Positions 1 through 24,020 of a DNA stretch of 34,360 nucleotides are shown in pieces (the stretch's first letter is position 1; each line of letters begins with the position of its first letter). The stretch covers positions 1 to 34,360 of the forward strand of contig MNUT01000014.1 of NCBI GenBank assembly GCA_001871165.1, given 5' to 3'. The notes below the pieces were generated by a model. That model saw only the letters and a list, made by a program, of their open reading frames with translations. It ran no database searches and was not told the origin of the DNA. Both the position numbers and the translations under genes were made by a program. This DNA is from Candidatus Falkowbacteria bacterium CG1_02_37_21. GTDB lineage: Bacteria > Patescibacteriota > Patescibacteriia > Patescibacteriales > UBA12465.

Positions 1-1927
1 CCTTATTACGGACCACCGAATCATTGGTAATACCGATAGAATTATCAGTATTAGCCGGTTTAACTATCAATGGGTAACGCAAATCTTCCCGAATATCATC
101 ATCTAGAGAATAAACATAGTCCCATTCCGGCGTAGGAATTTTATGATAAGCTAATAGTTTTTTGACTCTAATTTTATCAATACATAAACCGAGCGTAAAA
201 GGATTAGAACCGGTATAAGGAATTTGCAAAGTATCTAAAATAGCAGCCACATGAGGTTCTAATAAACTAGAATTATTAATTCTTTCACAAACATTAACGA
301 CTAAGTCCACTTCACTAACTCGCAAATCATTAAAAGCTTGTGGCAAGTCATTAAAATCAAAAAAGCTAACTTTATAACCTCGCTCTTTTAAATTCCTTTC
401 AATATCCTTACCAATCACGGTTAAATCTTTCTCTACTACAGTTTCCTGATTAGTGAGATTTTCCTCATATAAATTACAAGCAATGCCAATATGCAAATTG
501 CGCTGATTAGAAATTGCCATGCGTCTAATTTTTTCAATCTTACTCCGTCGCTTTAACATGTCAGTATTAAGAGCGGAGACAGAAAAAGGCGAGCGACGCG
601 CCGTCTTACCAATAGAAGAAGCGGGATGAAAACGAGCAATTTCATAACCGACTTCCTGCTCAATTATTTCTAAATTATCCCGAGCGTCTAAAGCATTAAA
701 ACCAGTCACTAATACCCAACCCAGATATTCATAACCATCCGGCGGCGCCAAAACCGAATCACCAATTTTTTTATCAAATTGAAATTCTTGTACATAAGCT
801 CGTCTCTTCAAATCTTCCGGAATGTCCAGGTTAACTAAAATGCCCGAATAGTCGGCGCAAAAAGTTTTCGCGGCTAAATATTCAAAAGGCCCGTCGGGGA
901 ATTCAAACTTCGGGATATAAATACCACAAGAAATCTTAAGTAAATTTTCTATTAAATCCACATGCCAAGCCCCTTTAACACTGGGTAATATTTCATCACC
1001 ACCGACCCGTAAATTTATTTCTAGAGGTATAGGACCGCACGTGGTTGACTTTGCCTCAAAATGGACACAGGCGTTTAAAATTCCTAACTTTTCTAAAGTC
1101 TCATCCGCCATCGCCAAGAGTTCCGCCTGATTCTTAATCGGTAAACTGGAAGGAGTCATGCGTGTCGTTTCAATAAAGAAAGGCTCCTTAGTTTGACCAT
1201 TATCACTAATGGCACAGAATTTTATCTTCCCATTCTGAACTAAAATGTCCATGTCCACTTCATCACCGTCAATATATTCTTCCACAAAAACATCTAAACC
1301 ATCATTAAGGGCCGATTCTATTTTAGGCGAAACTTCTTTCTTTAAATAATTATAACTGGCGCGTAATTCTGCTTCATTATTAACTTTAACCACAAAAGCA
1401 CTGGCTGCTCCAAAAGCCGGCTTCATTACCACGGGAAAATTCAAAAGTTTTATAACATCATCTAAGTCGCGACTGTTTTTTAATTCATAATATTTAACAA
1501 AGGGTAAACCATTAGCTTCACAAAAAGCTCGAAAAGATAATTTATTACGCACCTGACTAGTCACCTTAAAAGGCACACCGATTAGTTTATAACGATCAAC
1601 AATCTTAGAGGTCAACAAAACATCATCCTCTAAAAAAGTAATAACGCCATCTAATTTTAGATTGGCGTTATCTTTAAAAAAATTATCTAAAACCGCTAAG
1701 GCTTCAATATAATTTAGAGTATTAGCGGTTACGCAATAATCAACATAAGACTGGAAGGTGTTAGCCTCTTGGCTTAAAACAATAACTTTTAGACCCAAGC
1801 TCTTTACTCGTTTAATAAAGGTCCTCTTGGAGTGTAAGGGGTCATTAGCACCGGAGGAATTAACAATAAGAAGTGTCTTGCCGCTCAGAGACCCATGGCT
1901 GGGATCGGGATTGCCGCTACCACTCAT
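1..1927 (-). CDS. Tandem ATP-grasp protein: N-terminal carboxylate-amine ligase-like ATP-grasp plus C-terminal D-Ala-D-Ala ligase-like ATP-grasp; truncated by window start
   Basis: Not in the ORF track because the stop lies outside the window. Translating minus from ATG at 1927 gives an open frame to base 1 (MSGSGNPDPSHGSLSGKTLLIVNSSGANDPLHSKRTF...FPVVMKPAFGAASAFVVKV...VEEYIDGDEVDMDILV...PLEINLRVGGDEI...) followed by a second ATP-grasp start (NLHIGIACNLYEE...PYTGSNPFTLGLCIDKIRVKKLLAYHKIPTPEWDYV...YPLIVKPANTDNSIGI). Frame checked at both ends. Confidence 0.85.
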   Translation of the reverse strand, partial: MSGSGNPDPSHGSLSGKTLLIVNSSGANDPLHSKRTFIKRVKSLGLKVIVLSQEANTFQSYVDYCVTANTLNYIEALAVLDNFFKDNANLKLDGVITFLEDDVLLTSKIVDRYKLIGVPFKVTSQVRNKLSFRAFCEANGLPFVKYYELKNSRDLDDVIKLLNFPVVMKPAFGAASAFVVKVNNEAELRASYNYLKKEVSPKIESALNDGLDVFVEEYIDGDEVDMDILVQNGKIKFCAISDNGQTKEPFFIETTRMTPSSLPIKNQAELLAMADETLEKLGILNACVHFEAKSTTCGPIPLEINLRVGGDEILPSVKGAWHVDLIENLLKISCGIYIPKFEFPDGPFEYLAAKTFCADYSGILVNLDIPEDLKRRAYVQEFQFDKKIGDSVLAPPDGYEYLGWVLVTGFNALDARDNLEIIEQEVGYEIARFHPASSIGKTARRSPFSVSALNTDMLKRRSKIEKIRRMAISNQRNLHIGIACNLYEENLTNQETVVEKDLTVIGKDIERNLKERGYKVSFFDFNDLPQAFNDLRVSEVDLVVNVCERINNSSLLEPHVAAILDTLQIPYTGSNPFTLGLCIDKIRVKKLLAYHKIPTPEWDYVYSLDDDIREDLRYPLIVKPANTDNSIGITNDSVVRNK

Positions 1928-1975: not shown

Positions 1976-2003
1976 ATTATAACATGTCATTTAAAAACTA
2001 CAA
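1976..2003 (-). promoter_or_regulatory. Sigma70-like promoter for the tandem ATP-grasp gene (TTGTAG-N16-TATAAT)
   Basis: Minus strand: TTGTAG (2003..1998), 16-nt spacer, TATAAT (1981..1976), about 48 nt upstream of ATG 1927; overlaps the stop codon of the upstream alkD-like gene. Confidence 0.45.
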
Positions 2004-2720
2004 TAAAGAGTGATGTAAATAACCCTGTCGCTGGGCGGTCGTCAATCTCTCAATAGCGTAACGCAAAGTAGTGCGTGGCAAATGATTAATGTTATCATCT
2101 AAAAATTTAAGCAGAGCTTTTTCGCTCACTCGCTTCCCCGCCTCTCTTAGCATCCAACCGACAGCCTTATGAATTAAATCATGCTTATCTTTTAATAATT
2201 TCTTGGCGACAGAAAAAGTAATATTATAATCACTGTCCAAAATAAAAGCATAAGTAGACACCATAGCTATACGCTTTTCCCAAAGATTTTTTGAAGCAGC
2301 TATTTTTAAAAGTAGGGCTGATCCGCGCTTACTCCGCACTAAATAATCACCTAAAATCTTAGGAGCTGATAAATCTACCAAGTCCCAATTATTGATGCGC
2401 TTACTACGGGACAGATAAAAATCCACCACCAATTTTCTCTCTTTTAAGGTTAGGGCCTTTTGATATTTTTGTACTAAAATCAGAAGCGCGACTAAACGAA
2501 ATTCATGAATAATGTCAGCTAAGAGCTCTTTAAGCTCCGGGTAGCTCAAATCTGTATACTGAGAGGCTATTTGTCGTTGGAGTGGCACTCGTAGGCCTAA
2601 AAACACATCACCAGCCCCATATTGACCGGGGTCAGTTTTAAAAAAACGTTGTAAAATCACAGCCTGCGACTTATCGGCGTTTTTTCTCAATTCTTTTTTT
2701 AATTGCTCTAGCCTGGACAT
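1998..2720 (-). CDS. DNA alkylation repair protein, AlkD-like HEAT-repeat family
   Basis: 240-aa ORF; helical protein with AlkD-family patterns (FFKTDPGQYGAGDVFLGLRVPLQRQIA..., NNWDLVDLSAPKILGDYL, HDLIHKAVGWMLREAGKR, MPRTTLRYAIERL-like C-terminus). Confidence 0.85.
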   Translation of the reverse strand: MSRLEQLKKELRKNADKSQAVILQRFFKTDPGQYGAGDVFLGLRVPLQRQIASQYTDLSYPELKELLADIIHEFRLVALLILVQKYQKALTLKERKLVVDFYLSRSKRINNWDLVDLSAPKILGDYLVRSKRGSALLLKIAASKNLWEKRIAMVSTYAFILDSDYNITFSVAKKLLKDKHDLIHKAVGWMLREAGKRVSEKALLKFLDDNINHLPRTTLRYAIERLTTAQRQGYLHHSLL

Positions 2721-2734
2721 GGTAATTTTTAGAA

Positions 2735-3205
2735 TTAATAATGATAATTTTTATTATTCAAAATTGTCACCGCCCGATAAATTTGCTCTAAAATCACAAC
2801 GCGCGCCAGTTCATGCGGAAAAGTTAGAGGTGATAAAGAAATTTGCGGATAACGACGATAAAGCTCGTCACTAAAACCTAAAGTTCCTCCTAAGACTAAA
2901 ATTAAAGGCTGAGTTTTTTCCAGCCAAAGAGCAAAATCCGGAGAGTTAAACATTTTTCCCCGTTCCGCCAACAGATAAACCTGAGCCGAATTTTTTTTGA
3001 CAGAACTTGATTCCAAATATTCTACAATTCTCTTGGCTTCTAACTCTTTAGATTGTATCTTATTATTTTCAGAAAATGGCGTAGCCGCTAATTCTTTTAT
3101 TCGTAAACGCACATAAGGAGACAAGCGTTTACTATACTCCGCCAGAGCTTCCTGCCAATACTTTTCTTTAACCTTGCCAATAATCAACAGAGTAATATCC
3201 AACAT
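2735..3205 (-). CDS. rlmH: 23S rRNA (pseudouridine1915-N3)-methyltransferase RlmH
   Basis: 156 aa; ITLLIIGKVKEKYW, LVLGGTLGFSDELYRR, LSPLTFPHELARVVILEQIYRAVTILNNKNYHY are typical SPOUT-family RlmH motifs. Confidence 0.95.
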   Translation of the reverse strand: MLDITLLIIGKVKEKYWQEALAEYSKRLSPYVRLRIKELAATPFSENNKIQSKELEAKRIVEYLESSSVKKNSAQVYLLAERGKMFNSPDFALWLEKTQPLILVLGGTLGFSDELYRRYPQISLSPLTFPHELARVVILEQIYRAVTILNNKNYHY

Positions 3206-12795: not shown

Positions 12796-14784
12796 TTAAC
12801 GAACTACGCCTGAGTTACTTAAGTTAGCAATATCATCGTCTTCCAACTTTGTGGTTTTAGAAGTAATTTTTTTAGTAATAGTTCCCTTCGTTTCCGTATC
12901 CAAAGCGCTCACAATAGAGCCAGGTGATAATATCAGAATCTTATTACGATCGTTATCGCTTGGTATAATACTAATACCGAATTCGGCATCAACTCGGTAA
13001 ACTGAAACCGGCAAACGACCAATTTCCCAAATTACCTGACGACTAGCTTCATCATAATATAAACTACCGACATTAGTCATATTATTGTTATTCCAAGATA
13101 CATAGGATGGCAACGTAAAGACCACGCGCGTCTCGCTTAACTCATGCAAATTATTTTTCACGGTCCAGTAGACTTTAAAACTGGTCTGCACGCCAACTTC
13201 CGGCGGCAAAGGACCGGAGCCAACCGGAATATTATCGCTATTAAAATAACGAATTTCTTCCTGCAAAGACAAGTCACTATTTAAACGACTAGTCACAGTA
13301 TTACTGATATTATCATGGCTCTTAGCGACCTGATTATTAATACCATATTGTCCGTAAGAAACAAGCGTTAAATCCTTAGCAATGTCACTATCTTGAAAAG
13401 AGCGTAACTTCAAACTGAAGTCAATTGCCCCTTCCGCTCCAGGCTTAATCTCCGCTAAGGCCGGAATTTCATTTTTAGTCCAAATAATACTATTACTCTG
13501 CACATCGCCTTTATTAACATCCGCTAAAGACTCCCAATTTAACATCTCTCCCTTCAACACAGCCATAATCACCACATCTTTAAAAGTATTTATACCATGG
13601 TTAACATAAGTTAAAGAATAATTTAAGGACTGCCCGGAATTTAAATCACCGTCATTTTTAGAATCATTCAGTAACATGGTTAGATTCAAATCACTATTCA
13701 CTAACTCTGGCTTTAAACTTTTTTCCCAAAAAGTATAAGATTGACCATCTTCTAGTTTCTTTTCCAAACGAACTTTAATTTCCAAATTATCAGCTTTTTG
13801 CTTAACCCGATAAGTTAAAGGAATTTCTTGGCGGCCCATTTCTTGACTTAAACCGCTCACCTGCCAACTAGCGCCACCAATCTTAGTAACCGTTAATTTT
13901 TTAGTGGAAGTAGCTGAGGCGTCGACACTTGTATCGGACGTTACTACGGACGCACTGGCGTCAGCAGGCACAGAAAAACTGATATTAAAATCACCCAAAC
14001 GATTATCTTCAATATTATAGATAACTAAACCCATGTCATTATCTTGATTGATAAAGGCCGTCGCGGAATAATTTAAATCAACCTGAAAACCCGGACCACT
14101 TAAGATTGTGGAAGCGGATGATTCTTTTTTGAATTCGCTAGTCAAACCACTGGGTAAATAACTTAAACGAGAAAAAATTACCGCTACCGAATCAGGTGGC
14201 GCAATCAAACGACCGGTAACAGTCAAGGTAGCACTGGCACCAGGCGCCATATCTGACAAATTCCAACCATAATTACCGCTAGTGGCCGCTGGAGAGGCAG
14301 AAGTTATAATAAAACTATCAGGATACTGTAATTCCAAGTGTACCTGAGACAAAGAATACTTCGTCGGATTATAATAAGTAATTTCATAAGAAAACTCTTC
14401 TCCGGCTAAAATTTTATCTGGGGCCTTCACTTGAAGTTCTAAGCCGTTAACATTGTTAGTACCACTCCAACCGTACCAATATAATAAATATCCCGCACCA
14501 ACTACAATCAATAACAGAACCAGGCGACGCAATAAGCGACCAAAAAATCCGAGACGTTTTTTAACATTCATTTTTTGAACATTAATTTTTGCACCATTCT
14601 TACCGCTATAAATCTCTGCCAAATTAGAATCAACCTCTTGTTCATGTACTTCCCTTTTCATAACTCGTTCAAAAACCGCCACCTCCGTCTCACTAGGCAC
14701 CGGTCTTTCCACGAATGAAGATAAACTAGAGTCAACAGCGCGACCGACGCGCAAGACTCTTTTGATTTTTTTTATTTTAGACAT
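12796..14784 (-). CDS. Single-pass membrane protein with DUF11-like/Ig-like extracellular repeats
   Basis: 662 aa; cytosolic N-terminus, TM (LVLLLIVVGAGYLLYWYGW), then repeats such as LAGEEFSYEITYYNPTKYSLSQVHLELQYPDSF and LNSGQSLNYSLTYVNHGINTFKDVVIMAVL. Confidence 0.7.
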   Translation of the reverse strand: MSKIKKIKRVLRVGRAVDSSLSSFVERPVPSETEVAVFERVMKREVHEQEVDSNLAEIYSGKNGAKINVQKMNVKKRLGFFGRLLRRLVLLLIVVGAGYLLYWYGWSGTNNVNGLELQVKAPDKILAGEEFSYEITYYNPTKYSLSQVHLELQYPDSFIITSASPAATSGNYGWNLSDMAPGASATLTVTGRLIAPPDSVAVIFSRLSYLPSGLTSEFKKESSASTILSGPGFQVDLNYSATAFINQDNDMGLVIYNIEDNRLGDFNISFSVPADASASVVTSDTSVDASATSTKKLTVTKIGGASWQVSGLSQEMGRQEIPLTYRVKQKADNLEIKVRLEKKLEDGQSYTFWEKSLKPELVNSDLNLTMLLNDSKNDGDLNSGQSLNYSLTYVNHGINTFKDVVIMAVLKGEMLNWESLADVNKGDVQSNSIIWTKNEIPALAEIKPGAEGAIDFSLKLRSFQDSDIAKDLTLVSYGQYGINNQVAKSHDNISNTVTSRLNSDLSLQEEIRYFNSDNIPVGSGPLPPEVGVQTSFKVYWTVKNNLHELSETRVVFTLPSYVSWNNNNMTNVGSLYYDEASRQVIWEIGRLPVSVYRVDAEFGISIIPSDNDRNKILILSPGSIVSALDTETKGTITKKITSKTTKLEDDDIANLSNSGVVR

Positions 14785-14793
14785 ATATTTATA

Positions 14794-17346
14794 TTAACGG
14801 CTTTGATTTTTTTGTACTAAAATTGACCAATAGCGATCTCGTGATAACGAACTATTAACATCCCAACCCGTAGCGGAACCACTTAGATCCATCGGGTAAC
14901 GCCAAAATATCGTATCCGCCTCGGGTAAAATTAAACGACTAGAAAAATTATCGGCAGATGCGCCCGGTTGTTTTTGGACCAAAAGCGAATAAGGAAATAA
15001 TTTAACAGCCTTGGGATTCAGCCAAGAATTAAGACGTTTTAACCAACTATCAGAGCTAATTGAGTCAAAAAAATTAAAAGGTAGGCGATAAGTTATACTA
15101 ACCGTCGCCGTTTCTCCCGGATCTAACATTAACCAGTTAGCAAAAACCGTCTTATTATTTTCTTGATATATTTTAGTGCCGCTACTAACATCAACTTTAG
15201 CCGCATTTTCTGCCACTAGGCGCGGACTCAGTGACATGCCGGTGTCAGGACGATTTTGTAAATATTTAGCATCCGGAACACGCCAGCCGGAACTTGATAA
15301 AAGTTCACTGCCAGCCGGAACATAAACACGCAACCAATCAACATTGCGCACTCCGGTTAAAACAGTACCCTTAACACCAGGATGCCGACGCGTAATTTTT
15401 ACAGTATTAATAATAGTGCCATCCGCCGCTACCTCGCTTAAAAGCTCTACGTCCTCTTGTATTAAACGATCAGTTTTTTGGCCGGCAATATTAGTATTAA
15501 CAACCAATAAGTAATCTTTGTCAGTATTAGCCACCACCCCGGCCCAATTACGATCACTGGCCGCCGACTGCAAAACCGGATCATTAAAATACATCAAAAT
15601 CTGTTTACCGGCCAAATTATTATCAAGCAATGCAATAATATTCACTAAATTATCCGGTGTTAATTTCTGGGGCAGAATTTCTAAAATTTTAACTAATAAA
15701 TCGCCAATGATTTTTTTTGGTTTATTATCGGGGTTAACATCTAAATTTTGTTGCAAAGGCAAATCAGTCATGACTACAGCCGAGCTGGTTGGCAAACCGG
15801 CCACCGCCACCGGATTTTCTATGACTAAATTAGACTGTTCGGTGATCATCTGTACGGTTTGCCAAAAATTATCAGAGTCAATAGTTAGGCCATACTCCAA
15901 GTTTAAATCAATCGGTCCGGTTATTTTTAACAAATCTTCAATAACAGTCGGGGTCACACTAATAACACCATCCACACTCGGACCATCACTCTTACTATAA
16001 AACCACATTAAATTCTGCGCCGTAGTGGGCCAGTCTGGCCACCAATTAGCATCCCAAAAATGCCAGAGTGTATTGACTAACCAAAGAGGCTCCGGAGCCG
16101 CTACACGCACTTTCAAGCCTCCCTCCGTATCATAAGCTCCACCACCCGGCACTTCTAAATTACGTATTTTTCCGTCTCGCAAATCAATTAAAGCATAACT
16201 ACCCAGAAAACCACCACTCGCCCGTAATTCAGCATTATTTTGAAAAACTACCAGATAACGCTTATCGCTACTTAGACCCAGCACTTCTTTTAATTTTTGT
16301 GCCGTTAAAACCAAACCCGATAAATTATCCGACAAAGCAGTGCTTTGATTTTTTAAAGTTAAAAATTTATTGTGATAAGCCTTCGGCAAATTATTCAAAT
16401 TAATATCATCCAAACATTTTTTTAAAGATGTGGCATCGGCACCCGCTTGCTGCCCATACACTAAAAAATTATCCAAAGAACCAGAAAAATCTTCCTGCTG
16501 ACCATTGAACAAACTGTCGGCAGCCAGAACTAAATTACTTCCCAAAGACGAAGCGAGTGTACCGGCTTGCAAAAATTTCTTGCTTTCGGCCGCTAATTTA
16601 AATTTAGGATTATCGGATAAAGTGGCTAAAGATAAAATAGAACTGTTTATTGCGCTTAAATCCTCTTGCGCCGCTAAAAAATTGGCACCAGCGGCTTGAA
16701 ATTCTGAATCGGCATTTTTAAAATTACGCTGCGAAGCCGAGTTAGCGGCCGTCAACAAATTATTTAGTGCTAACTCCGAACGATTACTAATCTTAGCCGC
16801 CAATGTAGATAAATTTCCCAAAGGCCAATAGAGCGCCAATTGAAAAGGTAAAATAATACACAATAAAATTAAAACAAAAGCCCAAACAGAAGACTTATAA
16901 AACTTATTTGTCCGGGAATTATTGGCATGAACAACCCGAGCACTAAACAAATTTTCTTGACCGCGAACAAAACCAAGCCAGGGATGTTTGCGGCGACGAG
17001 GTGATTTTATTTTCTTGGAAAAAATTCCTGAGAGACTAAACCAGCTAAATTTATTAACCTTTTTCTTAGCTTTAGCACGAGGCAACAAATTTTGGGCTGT
17101 CATTAAAAGTTGTTTAGGGGGTCGTATTGATACTTTAAAAACGCCAGTCGACTTCTTAAAAAAATTTTTAACAATATAGGCCAGCTTAAGCTGAACCAAT
17201 TTTAAATCTGGTCGCCACATTTTTTGCCGAGATTTAATATCTTTAACAATTACTTTTTCTTGTCGCCTTAAATCCACGACAAAATTAGAGAAACGCTCTC
17301 GTTCCGCTTCCACTAATCCAAATTTTTCATTCTTTATATTAGACAT
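14794..17346 (-). CDS. DUF4012 domain-containing membrane protein
   Basis: 850 aa; N-terminal basic region and TM (AFVLILLCIILPFQLALYWPLG), KRYLVVFQNNAELRASGGFLGSYALIDLRDGKI typical of DUF4012. Confidence 0.85.
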   Translation of the reverse strand: MSNIKNEKFGLVEAERERFSNFVVDLRRQEKVIVKDIKSRQKMWRPDLKLVQLKLAYIVKNFFKKSTGVFKVSIRPPKQLLMTAQNLLPRAKAKKKVNKFSWFSLSGIFSKKIKSPRRRKHPWLGFVRGQENLFSARVVHANNSRTNKFYKSSVWAFVLILLCIILPFQLALYWPLGNLSTLAAKISNRSELALNNLLTAANSASQRNFKNADSEFQAAGANFLAAQEDLSAINSSILSLATLSDNPKFKLAAESKKFLQAGTLASSLGSNLVLAADSLFNGQQEDFSGSLDNFLVYGQQAGADATSLKKCLDDINLNNLPKAYHNKFLTLKNQSTALSDNLSGLVLTAQKLKEVLGLSSDKRYLVVFQNNAELRASGGFLGSYALIDLRDGKIRNLEVPGGGAYDTEGGLKVRVAAPEPLWLVNTLWHFWDANWWPDWPTTAQNLMWFYSKSDGPSVDGVISVTPTVIEDLLKITGPIDLNLEYGLTIDSDNFWQTVQMITEQSNLVIENPVAVAGLPTSSAVVMTDLPLQQNLDVNPDNKPKKIIGDLLVKILEILPQKLTPDNLVNIIALLDNNLAGKQILMYFNDPVLQSAASDRNWAGVVANTDKDYLLVVNTNIAGQKTDRLIQEDVELLSEVAADGTIINTVKITRRHPGVKGTVLTGVRNVDWLRVYVPAGSELLSSSGWRVPDAKYLQNRPDTGMSLSPRLVAENAAKVDVSSGTKIYQENNKTVFANWLMLDPGETATVSITYRLPFNFFDSISSDSWLKRLNSWLNPKAVKLFPYSLLVQKQPGASADNFSSRLILPEADTIFWRYPMDLSGSATGWDVNSSLSRDRYWSILVQKNQSR

Positions 17347-18526
17347 TTTTTTTCAAAATTTCTTGATATACCTGAAGTGTTTCATTGGCACATTGCCACC
17401 AATTATATTTTTTTACTTGCTCACGTCCTTTAGCAATTAAATTATCTCGCTGTTCTGGATTATCCAAAACTAAACGAACTTTAGCAATCATGTCAGCTTG
17501 ATCATCAGGATTAAAATACAGGGCGGCCGAGCCTAGAACTTCCGGTAAAGAAGCTCGGTCGGAGCTAACTACGGGACAGCTTCTAGCCATAGCCTCTAAG
17601 GGCGGCAGACCAAAACCTTCATACCAAGAAGGAAAGATATAAAGACTCGCTTCCACATATAAAATTTCTAATTTCGCATCAGGCACATAGCCCGGAAAAA
17701 TAACGGCACAATTACGATTTCCTTGCTGCCAAAGGTTCAGAGCCGCCGCCGTTTGACGCAATCGTTCATAAAAATAATCCATTTTACCAACCATAACTAA
17801 ATGTAATTCCGGCCGTTCTAAATGCAAAACACTAAACATTTTTAGTAAGGCCTCCAAATTCTTATGGGGATAAGCATTGCCGACATACAACAAGAACTGT
17901 CGCGGAATATTATATTGAGTCAAGATTTCTTCGCTATCTAATTTAGCGACAAATAAGGAGTCACGACCTTTAGCAAGATTAGCCGCTCCTTCGTAAGTAA
18001 CAATTATTTTTTGTGGTTTAATGCCAAATTTTTTAATAATGTCCGTCTTAGTAAATTCCGACACCGTAATTATTTTTTGAGCGCGAAGTAAGGCAATAAA
18101 AATCACTAGACGATAAGCAAAATTCTTTAAATAATAAAAAAGATAATTACGAGTCGTAGCGCGCACGGTCGGGAAATGAGTTAAAATTAAATCATGTACC
18201 GTTAAAACAAATTTAACCGGAGTAAAAAGTGGCACATTAAAATGAAGAAAATGCACCAAGTCCAAATTAGCACGCCAAAGACGATAGGGCATCACAATCT
18301 GCTCTGACCAAGAATACCAAGCACATGATAATTTAACTTTAGTGACTTGCGGACTATCAATTATGAATTCATCAAAATTATCCGGACTAAGGAATATAAT
18401 ATAATGAAAAGGGGCACCTTGCTCCTCTCCAATAATCTTTATAATATTATCTACCACCTCTTGCGTATAACGACCCAAACCCTTGCCGGCTGGACCGTAG
18501 AAGCGGGCATCAATTCCAATCCGCAT
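17339..18526 (-). CDS. Glycosyltransferase family 4 (GT-B) protein
   Basis: 395 aa; MRIGIDARFYGPAGKGLGRYTQEVV, HDLI, ITVSEFTKTDIIKKFGI, LYVGNAYPHKNLEALLKMF, FPSWYEGFGLPPLEAMARSCPVVSSDRASLPEVLGSAALYFNPDD. Confidence 0.95.
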   Translation of the reverse strand: MRIGIDARFYGPAGKGLGRYTQEVVDNIIKIIGEEQGAPFHYIIFLSPDNFDEFIIDSPQVTKVKLSCAWYSWSEQIVMPYRLWRANLDLVHFLHFNVPLFTPVKFVLTVHDLILTHFPTVRATTRNYLFYYLKNFAYRLVIFIALLRAQKIITVSEFTKTDIIKKFGIKPQKIIVTYEGAANLAKGRDSLFVAKLDSEEILTQYNIPRQFLLYVGNAYPHKNLEALLKMFSVLHLERPELHLVMVGKMDYFYERLRQTAAALNLWQQGNRNCAVIFPGYVPDAKLEILYVEASLYIFPSWYEGFGLPPLEAMARSCPVVSSDRASLPEVLGSAALYFNPDDQADMIAKVRLVLDNPEQRDNLIAKGREQVKKYNWWQCANETLQVYQEILKKNV

Positions 18527-18529
18527 AAT

Positions 18530-20008
18530 TTATATAAAAGGCAAATTAGCCGGCGGCGCGCTTTGGGGAGTATCTAAATTCTCCGCAAATGTTTCTTCCG
18601 GTCTTAATATTTCTTCTAGATCTTTATTATGACTAGACTTATCCTCTGTCACGTCATGGTTATTATTCTTCCCAAAAATATCCGACGACTGTTCAATATT
18701 AAACTCGGCTAAAGGTAAAGCGGCTGGTGCATCGGCTTTACGTCCCGGCGCTTTTTGCATCATCGCCGCCTTAACGTTAGCTTCCACCGGGAAATGCCAC
18801 ATTGTTGCTAGTTCCTCCACATTATATAAACCAGGGAGACGACCGCGACCATCAGAACGCAGTTTATAAGCTTGAAAAATTTTACGTTTTTTTGATTCAA
18901 CGCGTTGATTAGTAAAAAAGTATTGTGCTTTAGTCATGGTAAAGTCTAAATCTGGCTTCATGTTATTAAGATCTAGAGAAGCAAACTGTTTCATATAACC
19001 CACCATACCATTAGCCACCTTCGCATTATTTTTTACTTCCCTCTTCGCGATATAAACCATTCTAAATTTAGCTTCAAAACCAATTTTAGAAGCTTTTATC
19101 TGTATTCCTTCCACCTTTCTTTTCTCATCCGGAGTTAAATCCATCATAGTCTTGGGTTTATCCTCCTTCTTATCCTTGGCCTCAATATCACCCCAAATAG
19201 AATAAACCACTTCACTTAGTTCTCCCATCCACTCCACAATTTTAGAGCCCAAGCCTGCCTTATACTTGACTTTACGACCAAAAATTTTATTAATTTCTTT
19301 TTCCGATTCTTTTACCCAGTCAAAACCGGTAGGGATAAGAATAGTCTGAAACCAAAAATATTCACCTTGACGCAAAGAACCGCAAAGGTCCATTAAACTG
19401 GCCATAGGATCTTTAAACTGCGTCTCGCTCGGCCCCATGGTATGCTCAAATTCTTGATAACATTTTATAGGATAAACCGATGATTCTTTTTGATGAAATT
19501 CGGTACCCCAAATATCATATTCTTCATCCGGTAAATTTTCTGGCAGATTCTCAATATAATCATCAACCTCAGAGATTTCCGCGTCCGGATACTGAGAATA
19601 GACCGAGGACTCCACTAAATTACGAAATTCTACCGGCGTCCAAATCAAAAACTGAGTATAACCTTCCAAGCTCACAATCTCGCAACTAAAAGCCTTTTGA
19701 TATTTGCCTTCAAACCATTTTTCAAAAAAATTGACACTACCGTGCGCTCCGGACAAATAAGTAAACATATTCTCTACCGCCTTAGGGGACTGCTCATTAC
19801 CACGCGGAATATCAATCGCTAACAGCACGCTTTTATGAGTATTATTCCATTGATTACGTAACCAAAAAAGATAAACGTCTCTAACGCCAATTAAAAATAT
19901 GGCAGCCAAAATTAACCAGCCGATGTTATAAAAAAAGACCCAAAACATCTCATCGGCTGGTAAGGCAAAAAATTGATTAAAGACGGCAGTATTAATAACA
20001 ATATCCAT
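18530..20008 (-). CDS. Conserved membrane-anchored hypothetical protein (resembles the DUF8128-type proteins of CPR bacteria)
   Basis: 492 aa; one N-terminal TM followed by a large soluble domain (HKSVLLAIDIPRGNEQSPKAVENMFTYLSGAHG..., WFQTILIPTGFDWVKESEKEINKIFG..., FRMVYIAKREV). Family name from memory, not searched. Confidence 0.6.
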   Translation of the reverse strand: MDIVINTAVFNQFFALPADEMFWVFFYNIGWLILAAIFLIGVRDVYLFWLRNQWNNTHKSVLLAIDIPRGNEQSPKAVENMFTYLSGAHGSVNFFEKWFEGKYQKAFSCEIVSLEGYTQFLIWTPVEFRNLVESSVYSQYPDAEISEVDDYIENLPENLPDEEYDIWGTEFHQKESSVYPIKCYQEFEHTMGPSETQFKDPMASLMDLCGSLRQGEYFWFQTILIPTGFDWVKESEKEINKIFGRKVKYKAGLGSKIVEWMGELSEVVYSIWGDIEAKDKKEDKPKTMMDLTPDEKRKVEGIQIKASKIGFEAKFRMVYIAKREVKNNAKVANGMVGYMKQFASLDLNNMKPDLDFTMTKAQYFFTNQRVESKKRKIFQAYKLRSDGRGRLPGLYNVEELATMWHFPVEANVKAAMMQKAPGRKADAPAALPLAEFNIEQSSDIFGKNNNHDVTEDKSSHNKDLEEILRPEETFAENLDTPQSAPPANLPFI

Positions 20009-20040
20009 ATAAAATATAAGTCTATTTTAACACAAAAAAC

Positions 20041-20077
20041 CGAAAAAATAAAATCCGACGCGCTTAACGTCGGATTT
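20041..20077 (-). terminator. Intrinsic terminator downstream of the sigma4/HARE gene
   Basis: 10-bp perfect stem AAATCCGACG...CGTCGGATTT; on the minus strand followed by TTATTTTTT. Confidence 0.8.
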
Positions 20078-20128
20078 CTGATAATTTTATTTTAAGTGGG
20101 ACTAAAATCTCACATTAACACTAATATT

Positions 20129-21169
20129 TTACTTGGCCCATTCCTTTAAACCGTAGGTACCGCGACCAACTAAATTATAACGCTCATCCAAAATCAATTC
20201 ATTATGAACCGTAGCAGCATTAGCCTCTTTGCGATCAAATTTCATTTCATTAATTTTTTTGGCAATATCGGTAAAGTGAAGCGGTTCGCCCGAATGTTTA
20301 AGGATTAAGTAGATTTTATCATTAACGGTTTTAGGTTTTACTTCCCCCCAATGAGACATCCCCCATTCACCATATTTATTTTGTTCTAAGGTTTTAATAG
20401 CCTGAATCAAAGAATAAAGGGTTTTATTGCCATTAATTATTTCCGCTTTATCAGCAAATAATTGGCTTTTAAAAATTGAACTGATATCAGCCAAAGAATC
20501 AGCGGCCATCTTAGGTGTATTTTTTAAATAAGAACCTAGCTGTTTTAACATTAATAAAATTTCATCGGTAGAGAGGGTCTTACTAGTACTCTGTAGCTTC
20601 TTTAATAAATCTGAAGCTAACTCCTCCAAGTGACTGACATCACCATTCTTTTTCTTCACGGAAGAACTAAAATTCTCAGAGTCTTCTACTAACTCTAAAT
20701 GATCATCTAATAATTTAGAAATCAAGAAATCAAAATGGTTACGATAAATTTTACGACGAGTCTCATAGTCGGGATGATTATGGTCCAACGAACTATTAAT
20801 TTCTAAACAAATGACAGTTAAAATATCTAAAAGATAATTGCGACCCATCAAACCACCATGATCCGCTAATAGACCATGTACCACGTCTTTTAAGGTCTGT
20901 ACTGAGCTCTCTAGTTTATCCAATTTTTTTATTTTTTTAATGCTAGCTGATTCAATCTGACGAACTCTTTCTCTGGTTAACTGATGCAAATTACCAATTT
21001 TTTCCAGAGTTTCTCCCTTGTCGCCTTTAAGTCCAAAACGACGAGTCAGAATATCTTTCTCTCTATCCAAAAGATCCACAAACAAGGATTCCACAATCGT
21101 AATGGCATCTAAACGAGCCAATTCTTCTGATTTTCGTTCCTTAATTATATCTTCTAATGTATTATCCAT
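20129..21169 (-). CDS. Sigma-70 region 4-like HTH protein with C-terminal HARE-HTH (RNAP delta-like) domain
   Basis: 346 aa; LLDREKDILTRRFGLKGDKGETLEKIGNLHQLTRERVRQIESASIKKIKKL = sigma70 region 4; C-terminus DKIYLILKHSGEPLHFTDIAKKINEMKF...ATVHNELILDERYNLVGRGTYGLKEW = HARE-HTH. Confidence 0.88.
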   Translation of the reverse strand: MDNTLEDIIKERKSEELARLDAITIVESLFVDLLDREKDILTRRFGLKGDKGETLEKIGNLHQLTRERVRQIESASIKKIKKLDKLESSVQTLKDVVHGLLADHGGLMGRNYLLDILTVICLEINSSLDHNHPDYETRRKIYRNHFDFLISKLLDDHLELVEDSENFSSSVKKKNGDVSHLEELASDLLKKLQSTSKTLSTDEILLMLKQLGSYLKNTPKMAADSLADISSIFKSQLFADKAEIINGNKTLYSLIQAIKTLEQNKYGEWGMSHWGEVKPKTVNDKIYLILKHSGEPLHFTDIAKKINEMKFDRKEANAATVHNELILDERYNLVGRGTYGLKEWAK

Positions 21170-21336
21170 ATTAACTTGAAATAAACCCTAGACTTAGCCA
21201 TTGAGTAATTTTTTGACTAATAAATTTAACAAACGAGAGAAAAATATACTTCTTCTTCCCTCGTTAATCTTGAATATTTTAGATATTAAAAACAAAATTT
21301 AAGACATCCTCAACTTATCACATTATTTTATATTAG

Positions 21337-22386
21337 TCAACACTTTACGATAGTTTTACGATAGCGAAAAATATAAATATATTCTTTTAAGAGAAACTGC
21401 TCTAATATTAAAGAAAAAATAAAAAGCAAGCCTATACGAAAGGCAATAAAGACCCTGTTGACAATGTTTTCATTTTTCCAGTTTTTAATAAACAAATAGT
21501 GTTGATTACGAAAAGACCAAACTCTAATTTGTCGACTTTTGTTTCGACGATTAGACATAAAGGTGCCTAAACCAAGTTTAGCTGAAGACGCGGTGCGGTC
21601 ATGATAAATAATAGAGTCAGAAACTGTCATTGACTGATAACCGGCCTTAGTCAGGCGATAAGCCAAGTCGCAATCTTCTTTATACATAAAAAAATTCTCA
21701 TCAAAATATTGCCGTTCCCTCTCTACTCCAGGGCTCATTGCTTCTAAGCCATTAGGAACAAAAGAAATATCCGACAAAGCCTTAGTACGAAATAATCCGG
21801 CCGCCCCGCTTGGTCCCAGAATCGTTAATTTTTTTAAACTGCCCCGAGTCGCGTCTACAAACTGCTCTACATTTTCACCTTGCCCTAAATCAAAAAATTG
21901 TAAACCCGGCTTTATAGCTATTCCCAAGGTATCTATAATATCAGTTTTTTTCTTTCCCCCCGCAAAGTCCCAACGCAAAATTGTCGGCGCCGTAGCAGCT
22001 AATCCAGAATCATTTTCTAAAGACGCCAAAAGACTAGAGATAGAATCCGGCTCTAAAAGCGTATCGGGATTAATAACTAAAAAATATTCCGCCTCGGTAG
22101 TTAAGGCAGAACGAATTAAAATATTATAAGCGCGACTAAAACCTAAATTTTTTTCCTGCGTTAAATACTGGATAGGACTATGCGGACTAAAACCCAGTTC
22201 CCCGCGATTAAAACTTTCAATAATTTGCTGATTTTGCTTGTCGCCCGATTCGCTATTATCAAAGACAGTAATTTGATGCTGAGAAGGCGACAAAAAATTT
22301 AAAGCCAACTCTAAACTAGCTAAAAAATCCGGCAAATAACGGGCGGTTAATTTCGAATAAGTTAAAAAACCAATAGCTAACTTCAT
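21337..22386 (-). CDS. Glycosyltransferase family 2 protein
   Basis: 349 aa; ITVFDNSESGD, LTQEKNLGFSRAYNILI, YFLVINPDTLLEPDSI, GPSGAAGLFRTKAL, FDENFFMYKEDCDLAYRLTKAGY; C-terminal hydrophobic segment. Confidence 0.92.
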   Translation of the reverse strand: MKLAIGFLTYSKLTARYLPDFLASLELALNFLSPSQHQITVFDNSESGDKQNQQIIESFNRGELGFSPHSPIQYLTQEKNLGFSRAYNILIRSALTTEAEYFLVINPDTLLEPDSISSLLASLENDSGLAATAPTILRWDFAGGKKKTDIIDTLGIAIKPGLQFFDLGQGENVEQFVDATRGSLKKLTILGPSGAAGLFRTKALSDISFVPNGLEAMSPGVERERQYFDENFFMYKEDCDLAYRLTKAGYQSMTVSDSIIYHDRTASSAKLGLGTFMSNRRNKSRQIRVWSFRNQHYLFIKNWKNENIVNRVFIAFRIGLLFIFSLILEQFLLKEYIYIFRYRKTIVKC

Positions 22387-22388
22387 AT

Positions 22389-23114
22389 TTAAATAACCAT
22401 CTTGGGCGCTATCTTTTCTTTAGCCAGTGTCTGCGCCTTGAATAAACTGTCAAATGTCCCCGCATCCAACCATTCGCCCTTAACTAGCGCCACTGATAAC
22501 TCATCTTTCTCTAAATACCAATTATTAACATCGGTAATTTCTAGTTCACCACGCGCACTTGGTTTCATATTTTTCACAATATCTTTAACGCGTTTATCAT
22601 AAACATACAAACCTGTTACAGCATAATCACTCAAATATTCTTGCGGTTTTTCTACAATCTTTTCTGCCTTTAGCTTATCATCAAACTTCACGACACCAAA
22701 ACGTTCCGGATCTGAGACTTGCTTAGCAAAAATCTTAGCGCCGCCTTTAAAGCTCTTAATTTCTTCGGCAAAATAATCCTCAAAGATATTATCACCTAAA
22801 ATCATAGCGACATCATCATTATCAATAAAGTGTTCCCCGATAAGAAAAGCCTGGGCAATGCCCTCGGGATGATCTTGAATTTCATAAGTAAAAGTAACCC
22901 CAAACTCCTTCCCGGAACCGAGCAAATTAAGGTAATCACCCGCCCTTTCCGGCGCTACGATAATCAAAATTTCCTTGATACCGGCCTGGATCAAAGTATT
23001 TAAGGGATAATAAATCATCGGCCGATGATAAACCGATAATAATTGTTTGCTGGTAATTTTTGTTAAGGGGCGCAAACGAGTGCCTGAGCCACCTGATAAA
23101 ATTATTCCTTTCAT
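22389..23114 (-). CDS. rmlA: Glucose-1-phosphate thymidylyltransferase-like nucleotidyltransferase (short form)
   Basis: 241 aa; MKGIILSGGSGTRLRPLTKITSKQLLSVYHRPMIYYPLNTLIQAGIKEILII, MILGDNIFED, GLYVYDKRV, ARGELEITDVNNWYL, GEWLDAGTFDSL. Confidence 0.9.
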   Translation of the reverse strand: MKGIILSGGSGTRLRPLTKITSKQLLSVYHRPMIYYPLNTLIQAGIKEILIIVAPERAGDYLNLLGSGKEFGVTFTYEIQDHPEGIAQAFLIGEHFIDNDDVAMILGDNIFEDYFAEEIKSFKGGAKIFAKQVSDPERFGVVKFDDKLKAEKIVEKPQEYLSDYAVTGLYVYDKRVKDIVKNMKPSARGELEITDVNNWYLEKDELSVALVKGEWLDAGTFDSLFKAQTLAKEKIAPKMVI

Positions 23115-23162
23115 ATAAATTGCTAAGCCACTGGAATGCAGCTGGTATTAATAAATGATTAT

Positions 23163-24020
23163 TTATTTTCTCAAATATTCTTGCAAGGCCTCTTCCCATG
23201 ATCGCATTTTTTTGACTTTAGTATTTTTTAAAATAGAAAATTTGGGACGACGGGCCGCTCGCAAGAGATTTTCACTACGCACAGCTCTAATCGGGGCAGT
23301 AATTTTTTTTAAACGAAAGAGTTCTTTCACAGCGTCATACCAAGTTACCGGGCCCTGATTAACCAAATGATAAACACCATAGGGTTTTTCTAGTTCCCAT
23401 AATTGTCGTGTAGCTAGGGATAAATCCGGAGTATAGGTAAAGCAACTTAGCTCCTCATTAACAACCGTAAGCTCTTTTTTATTCTGAACCAAATCAAGCA
23501 TGATGTCAAAAAAACTGGGCTTAGCTTGCGGACTGGAACCACGCGGTCCAAACAGCTTAGAGGTTCTAATTAAATAATATTTTAAACCTGACTCAACGCG
23601 ACGTAAGATCTCTTGTTCGCCCTGGAACTTACTTTCTCCGTATTTATTAACCGGATTAGGCGTGTCCTCTTCCGTGAAGAATGTTTTATCCTCTGTTCCG
23701 GAAAAGACATAATCCGTAGAATAATGAATGAGGACAGCTTTCTGTTCAACGGCAATATCAGCCAATAAACCAGGGAAATAGGCATTTAATTTCATGGCTA
23801 ACTCATACTCTTCCTTGTTTTCGCATTGATCAACGGCATTATAAGCGGCGGCATTAATAATAATATTTGGCGCTATTTCCCGTACCTTGCTAATTAAAAC
23901 CTTAAAGTCTAAAAAATCTAAATCTTCCCTGTCTAAAGACACGACTTCATAATTCCCCGTTAACGATTTAGTTAATTGGGTGCCAAGATTACCTTGACCG
24001 CCGAGAATAAGAATTATCAT
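23163..24020 (-). CDS. rmlD: dTDP-4-dehydrorhamnose reductase-like SDR (RmlD family)
   Basis: 285 aa; LILGGQGNLGTQL, NIIINAAAYNAVDQCENKEEYELAMKLNA, HYSTDYVFSGTEDKTFFTEEDTPNPVNKYGESKFQGEQEI, YHLVNQGPVTWYDAVKELF. Confidence 0.92.
   Translation of the reverse strand: MIILILGGQGNLGTQLTKSLTGNYEVVSLDREDLDFLDFKVLISKVREIAPNIIINAAAYNAVDQCENKEEYELAMKLNAYFPGLLADIAVEQKAVLIHYSTDYVFSGTEDKTFFTEEDTPNPVNKYGESKFQGEQEILRRVESGLKYYLIRTSKLFGPRGSSPQAKPSFFDIMLDLVQNKKELTVVNEELSCFTYTPDLSLATRQLWELEKPYGVYHLVNQGPVTWYDAVKELFRLKKITAPIRAVRSENLLRAARRPKFSILKNTKVKKMRSWEEALQEYLRK

Follow-up and report, generated by a model that had tools for sequence, protein, structure and literature searches.

A protein that carries an L-amino-acid-ligase-like (Lal-like) ATP-grasp module and a D-alanine–D-alanine-ligase-like (Ddl-like) ATP-grasp module in one chain was identified at the end of a contig of Candidatus Falkowbacteria bacterium CG1_02_37_21 (MNUT01000014.1, positions 1 to 34,360; this whole 34,360-nucleotide stretch is referred to as the window). 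From its folds, residues, selection, fusion and gene linkage, this protein is probably a bifunctional ligase around which NRPS-free oligopeptide clusters of Patescibacteria are built.

The reading frame comprises 642 codons with zero internal stops and is truncated by the left end of the contig (Table 1), in an assembly of 0.70 Mb distributed over 32 contigs. The missing ~180 C-module residues, beyond base 1, had no match elsewhere in this assembly. The first-pass annotation had described two different ATP-grasp modules in this chain, and Pfam, HMMER and Foldseek all recovered them, one amino-acid-ligase-like and the other Ddl-like; the five motifs on which that description was based share one frame (residues 167, 215, 302, 570 and 618). 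Each half gave an ATP-grasp fold of its own when AlphaFold models were compared by Foldseek, 3vot-like for the N half and Ddl-like for the C half. The frame had also been taken for the longest unannotated one in the window; it is not the longest frame there, as ORFs of 850, 662 and 647 aa are present.

Table 1. Coordinates of the tandem gene, its modules, its neighbours and the c5 genes.
Feature	Position	Strand	Remarks
Tandem ATP-grasp protein gene	2..1927	-	ATG at 1927; C-terminal ~180 aa past the contig end
N module, residues 16-445	593..1882	-	L-amino-acid-ligase-type ATP-grasp + LAL_C2; Pfam, HMMER, Foldseek
Linker, residues 446-477	497..592	-	Low-confidence in the AlphaFold model
C module, residues 478-642 (full length about 810)	2..496	-	First half of a Ddl-like ATP-grasp
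Asp311 codon	995..997	-	Invariant in the family; aligned with the BacD specificity residue Trp332
DNA alkylation repair gene	1998..2720	-	Upstream; order kept in L018, L029 and other relatives; no functional tie
RlmH (SPOUT methyltransferase) gene	2735..3205	-	Conserved synteny marker
c5 loci	L026:6678-8051, L052, L053, L056, L067, L095-L102		

In the window protein, Pfam placed ATP-grasp_4 at residues 163-310 and LAL_C2 at residues 356-426, the latter with a score of 39.4 bits against a cut-off of 29.4 bits, which identifies a Lal-type C-terminal domain. The N half matched BL00235 (3vot, TM 0.87), RizA and BacD by Foldseek, and by HMMER as well. A check of the ATP and Mg residues, as had been advised, found the N-module set (K129, K169, E291, E303, N305 and R307) present in the window protein, together with E217 and D311, and the C-module set kept in most relatives. 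Among 25 aligned relatives Lys129, Lys169, Glu291, Glu303, Arg307 and Asp311 were invariant, and N305 was found in 22. The AlphaFold model, built from a 26-row alignment, had a mean pLDDT of 83.7, with a low-confidence linker around residues 435-470. In the HMMER alignment Asp311 falls on BacD Trp332, a residue reported to be critical in substrate recognition (PMC6920838); since the acidic residue at position 311 is invariant, a positively charged donor is tentatively suggested.

For the C module, Pfam detected Dala_Dala_lig_C at residues 609-801 of a full-length relative (P0001, from L021), and Foldseek matched the C half to many Ddl structures (TM 0.85-0.88). The part encoded in the window has D584, K585, K590, K623, S630 and G632, and the ATP-site residues Lys590, Lys623, Glu664, Glu769 and Asn771 are preserved in most members. 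The Ddl fold and ATP-binding residues thus characterize the C module except at three loci (L056, L061 and L062; 3/25 aligned relatives), where its catalytic residues were lost and the N module is intact. The C modules encoded at L056:2009-4408, L061:2714-5050 and L062:8058-10364 are without K623 and/or E769 and others, and have apparently decayed to a non-catalytic domain. Because these lineages keep an intact N module, the N activity is predicted to be the constant one across the tandem family. The di- or tripeptide or tailoring role first proposed for the protein is still the best reading, whereas the two consecutive condensations that went with it would not be universal, given the three lineages with a decayed C module. 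As to specificity, DdlB Ser150, Tyr216 and Ser281/Leu282 are the D-Ala recognition residues; in the tandem family the positions of Ser150 (mostly Asn629 here) and Ser281/Leu282 are altered, and that of Tyr216 is variable. Since the ATP-site residues are kept but these positions are changed or variable, the C module would be Ddl-like in its working, and D-Ala-D-Ala is not expected as its product.

Complete relatives of about 770-830 aa were detected, including one in CP066698.1, a single-contig Falkowbacteria record titled 'chromosome'. Relatives from the same genus were found in nine genomes (71-78% identity), and a tenth, from a sister genus (64% identity), is split across two contigs. The tandem protein was present in 16 of the 39 family genomes and in 17 of the 380 phylum genomes, each at its own threshold, and class-level matches at E below 1e-60 were obtained in 21/286 genomes, the phylum and class counts including a few single-module genes. 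Each module is also found by itself in the class genomes, as a lone N or a lone C module. For close pairs, dN/dS was 0.014-0.059 in both modules; both are under strong purifying selection. The tandem gene is real and conserved.

A GNAT (Acetyltransf_6) gene lies directly downstream of the tandem gene in Falkowbacteria, usually a few bases away. Within the family, the GNAT profile matched 9 of the 11 tandem genomes, with the gene immediately beside the tandem one, versus 1/28 others, the latter a single weak match (Fisher p about 2e-6). The two tandem genomes that lack it are the window's own and G036, where a SET gene takes its place. A search of this profile against the PDB gave no meaningful match. 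SET-domain genes were located at seven loci (L019, L020, L024, L026, L052, L095 and L100), and at five others (L023, L027, L048, L050 and L054) the tandem gene has housekeeping neighbours only. No GNAT or other partner gene was found in the window's assembly, and the window has none because the contig ends there; the earlier remark that there was no peptide-natural-product neighbourhood therefore holds within the window, whereas in relatives the gene has partner enzymes clustered around it. Elsewhere in the window, DUF11, DUF4012, glycosyltransferase, nucleotidyltransferase and RmlD genes (12796-24020, minus strand) form a probable surface polysaccharide cluster.

Richer clusters were recovered in the class, outside the window. 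One recurrent partner, named c5, is a protein of about 455 aa without any Pfam match; sequence searches of plasmids and the PDB gave no useful match, and its fold was therefore taken from AlphaFold, which returned a QatC/QueC-like PP-loop fold. It occurs in 11 of the 286 genomes of the class, and each time a tandem gene or a lone C module lies in the same cluster (p = 1.6e-14). A decarboxylase, a single ATP-grasp, the tandem gene and c5 occur together at L096 and L099; L100 has the decarboxylase, ATP-grasp, c5, a dipeptide epimerase and the tandem gene, and at L097 the set is extended by a DegT-like gene, another c5 and an LPG-synthase-C/GNAT-like gene. An epimerase, a methyltransferase and c5 are found at L056, and a KamA-like gene with a second tandem gene at L026. 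The dipeptide epimerase of L056, L097 and L100 had 3rit, a dipeptide epimerase, as its best PDB match. The decarboxylase (fold-III PLP) and the third ATP-grasp recur in 8-10 loci, and SET or class I methyltransferases join several clusters. At least two ATP-grasp ligases were clustered with amino-acid- or peptide-modifying enzymes at L051, L056, L058-L060 and L095-L100. MurL is an ATP-dependent, AMP-forming epimerase that acts on the last residue of a peptide (PMC5808125). The c5 protein, known by the PP-loop fold that it shares with QueC/QatC, is a possible MurL-like C-terminal epimerase.

These neighbourhoods also bear on other readings. Tailoring of the cell envelope, in which the tandem ligase and the GNAT would build or extend peptidoglycan or a surface peptide (e.g. 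a cross-bridge) and the epimerase and decarboxylase would alter it, would fit the Ddl-like C module, the Acetyltransf_6 group of the GNAT, the LPG-synthase-C/GNAT-like gene at L097 and the resemblance of the partners to DAP-decarboxylase and L-Ala-D/L-Glu-epimerase. We consider it unlikely, given the patchy occurrence in the family and phylum, the Ddl substrate residues that are not kept, and the fact that cell-wall genes are not recurrent neighbours, apart from additional Ddl-like genes close to L095 and L098. Tagging of a protein or a short ribosomal peptide, to which the ligase would add amino acids while the GNAT and SET enzymes modified the same target, is less probable still: SET and GNAT enzymes are frequently protein modifiers and SET genes adjoin the tandem gene at the seven loci named above, but no recurrent small precursor ORF or acceptor protein was found among the neighbours in a search of ORFs of at least 70 aa, and dipeptide epimerase, decarboxylase and KamA-like enzymes are better suited to small-molecule chemistry.

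That the tandem protein is the organism's own D-Ala-D-Ala ligase with an appended domain is very improbable. Ddl models were the top NCBIfam matches for the C module, and no standalone Ddl was found in the window's genome (G000). Against this, TIGR01205 scored 161.6 bits with the whole protein and 121-128 bits with each tandem C module, below its curated cut-off of 245.65, and six tandem-bearing genomes own a separate Ddl above that cut-off; the DdlB substrate residues are also not kept. With a separate true Ddl and low scores, a cell-wall Ddl identity was rejected for most carriers. The product of L048:13657-16056 (799 aa) is a different Ddl fusion, in which a Ddl-type N-terminus is followed by about 450 more residues. 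Finally, the position of the window's gene at a contig end would be compatible with an assembly artefact, chimaera or chance fusion, which was excluded because full-length, uninterrupted ORFs of 770-830 aa, without a stop or frameshift between the modules, recur under purifying selection in dozens of independent genomes, the single-contig chromosome CP066698.1 included.

Regarding the origin of the fusion, distances between N modules and between C modules showed no correlation over all pairs, and a weak one when decayed C modules were left out. A supported N-tree grouping of L052, L024 and L026 was rejected by the C-module data (p 0.0013), in a post-hoc test with long branches. A single shared history of both modules fails on the distances and on this rejected grouping; within the limits set by the long branches and the post-hoc choice, the N and C modules do not appear to have had one common history throughout. 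At L057:8881-11307 identity to most of the family is only about 31-36% in the N module, whereas the C module is 66-70% identical to many members, a possible case of module exchange or of N-module diversification. On a Sinorhizobium terangae plasmid (L068:7776-10163), separate Lal-like and Ddl-like genes adjoin each other downstream of an NRPS/PKS gene, and this pair is likely a picture of the pre-fusion state.

Under the preferred reading, a bifunctional ligase at the core of NRPS-free oligopeptide clusters, the product, the substrates and the order of the reactions would be as follows. The N module would convert an amino acid and ATP into an acyl phosphate and join it to an amine, yielding a dipeptide, with the invariant Asp at the BacD Trp332 position in its donor pocket. 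The C module, a Ddl scaffold not specific for D-Ala, would carry out a second ATP-dependent condensation, with the dipeptide or another, separately supplied residue as its substrate; in some lineages it would be a decayed, non-catalytic domain. In the window's own genus, GNAT and/or SET enzymes would modify the product; in other lineages a PP-loop carboxylate-adenylating enzyme, a dipeptide epimerase, a third ATP-grasp, a fold-III decarboxylase and a methyltransferase would act on it, with a change of chirality, removal of a carboxylate, methylation or acylation as the outcome. The product could be protein- or envelope-attached instead of free. More tentatively, the fused Lal-Ddl proteins might define an undescribed class of NRPS-free pathway widespread in Patescibacteria, in which c5, as a new PP-loop enzyme family, would act on the C-terminal carboxylate of the product, by epimerisation or a third coupling, giving small D-residue or decarboxylated peptides with a role between episymbiont and host.

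The genomes of Patescibacteria are described as streamlined, and their biosynthetic capacity as limited. The conserved, selected, multi-lineage clusters of several ATP-grasp modules and partners suggest that dedicated small peptides are made by some of these bacteria. Since the fused ligase is a single soluble protein from known genomes, its product is directly testable, and the reaction of c5, for which Pfam has no match, could be identified by supplying c5 with the ligase product.

The N module shares with the L-amino acid ligases (BL00235, BacD/YwfE and RizA) the fold (TM 0.70-0.87), the ATP-grasp_4 and LAL_C2 domains and the catalytic Lys/Glu/Arg set; in contrast, identity is just 16-23%, the tandem protein has Asp311 for BacD Trp332, and its N module is fused to a second ligase. 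With the D-alanine–D-alanine ligases the C module shares the fold (TM about 0.85) and, in most members, the ATP/Mg residues, whereas it scores below the curated cut-offs, does not keep the substrate residues, has decayed in some lineages and often coexists with a separate Ddl. Carbamoyl phosphate synthetase, which also has two ATP-grasp modules per chain, appears among the Foldseek matches; this identity was ruled out by the poor superposition (11-14% identity, rmsd above 20 A) and by sequence matches to the Lal and Ddl families. In phosphonoalamide biosynthesis, PnaC and PnaB are two separate ATP-grasp ligases that act in series (PMC11867202). The likeness lies in two such ligases in series, giving a tripeptide without an NRPS, the tandem's own product being predicted from its genes; PnaB and PnaC, however, are separate proteins of a phosphonate pathway, whereas the tandem is one fused protein with other partners. 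No prior description of a fused Lal-Ddl protein was found in the literature searched, the coverage of which was partial. L-amino acid ligases, Ddl and serial ATP-grasp pairs are thus known; what appears to be new, as seen in genes, is the Lal-Ddl fusion in one protein with other partners, for which a peptide product is predicted.
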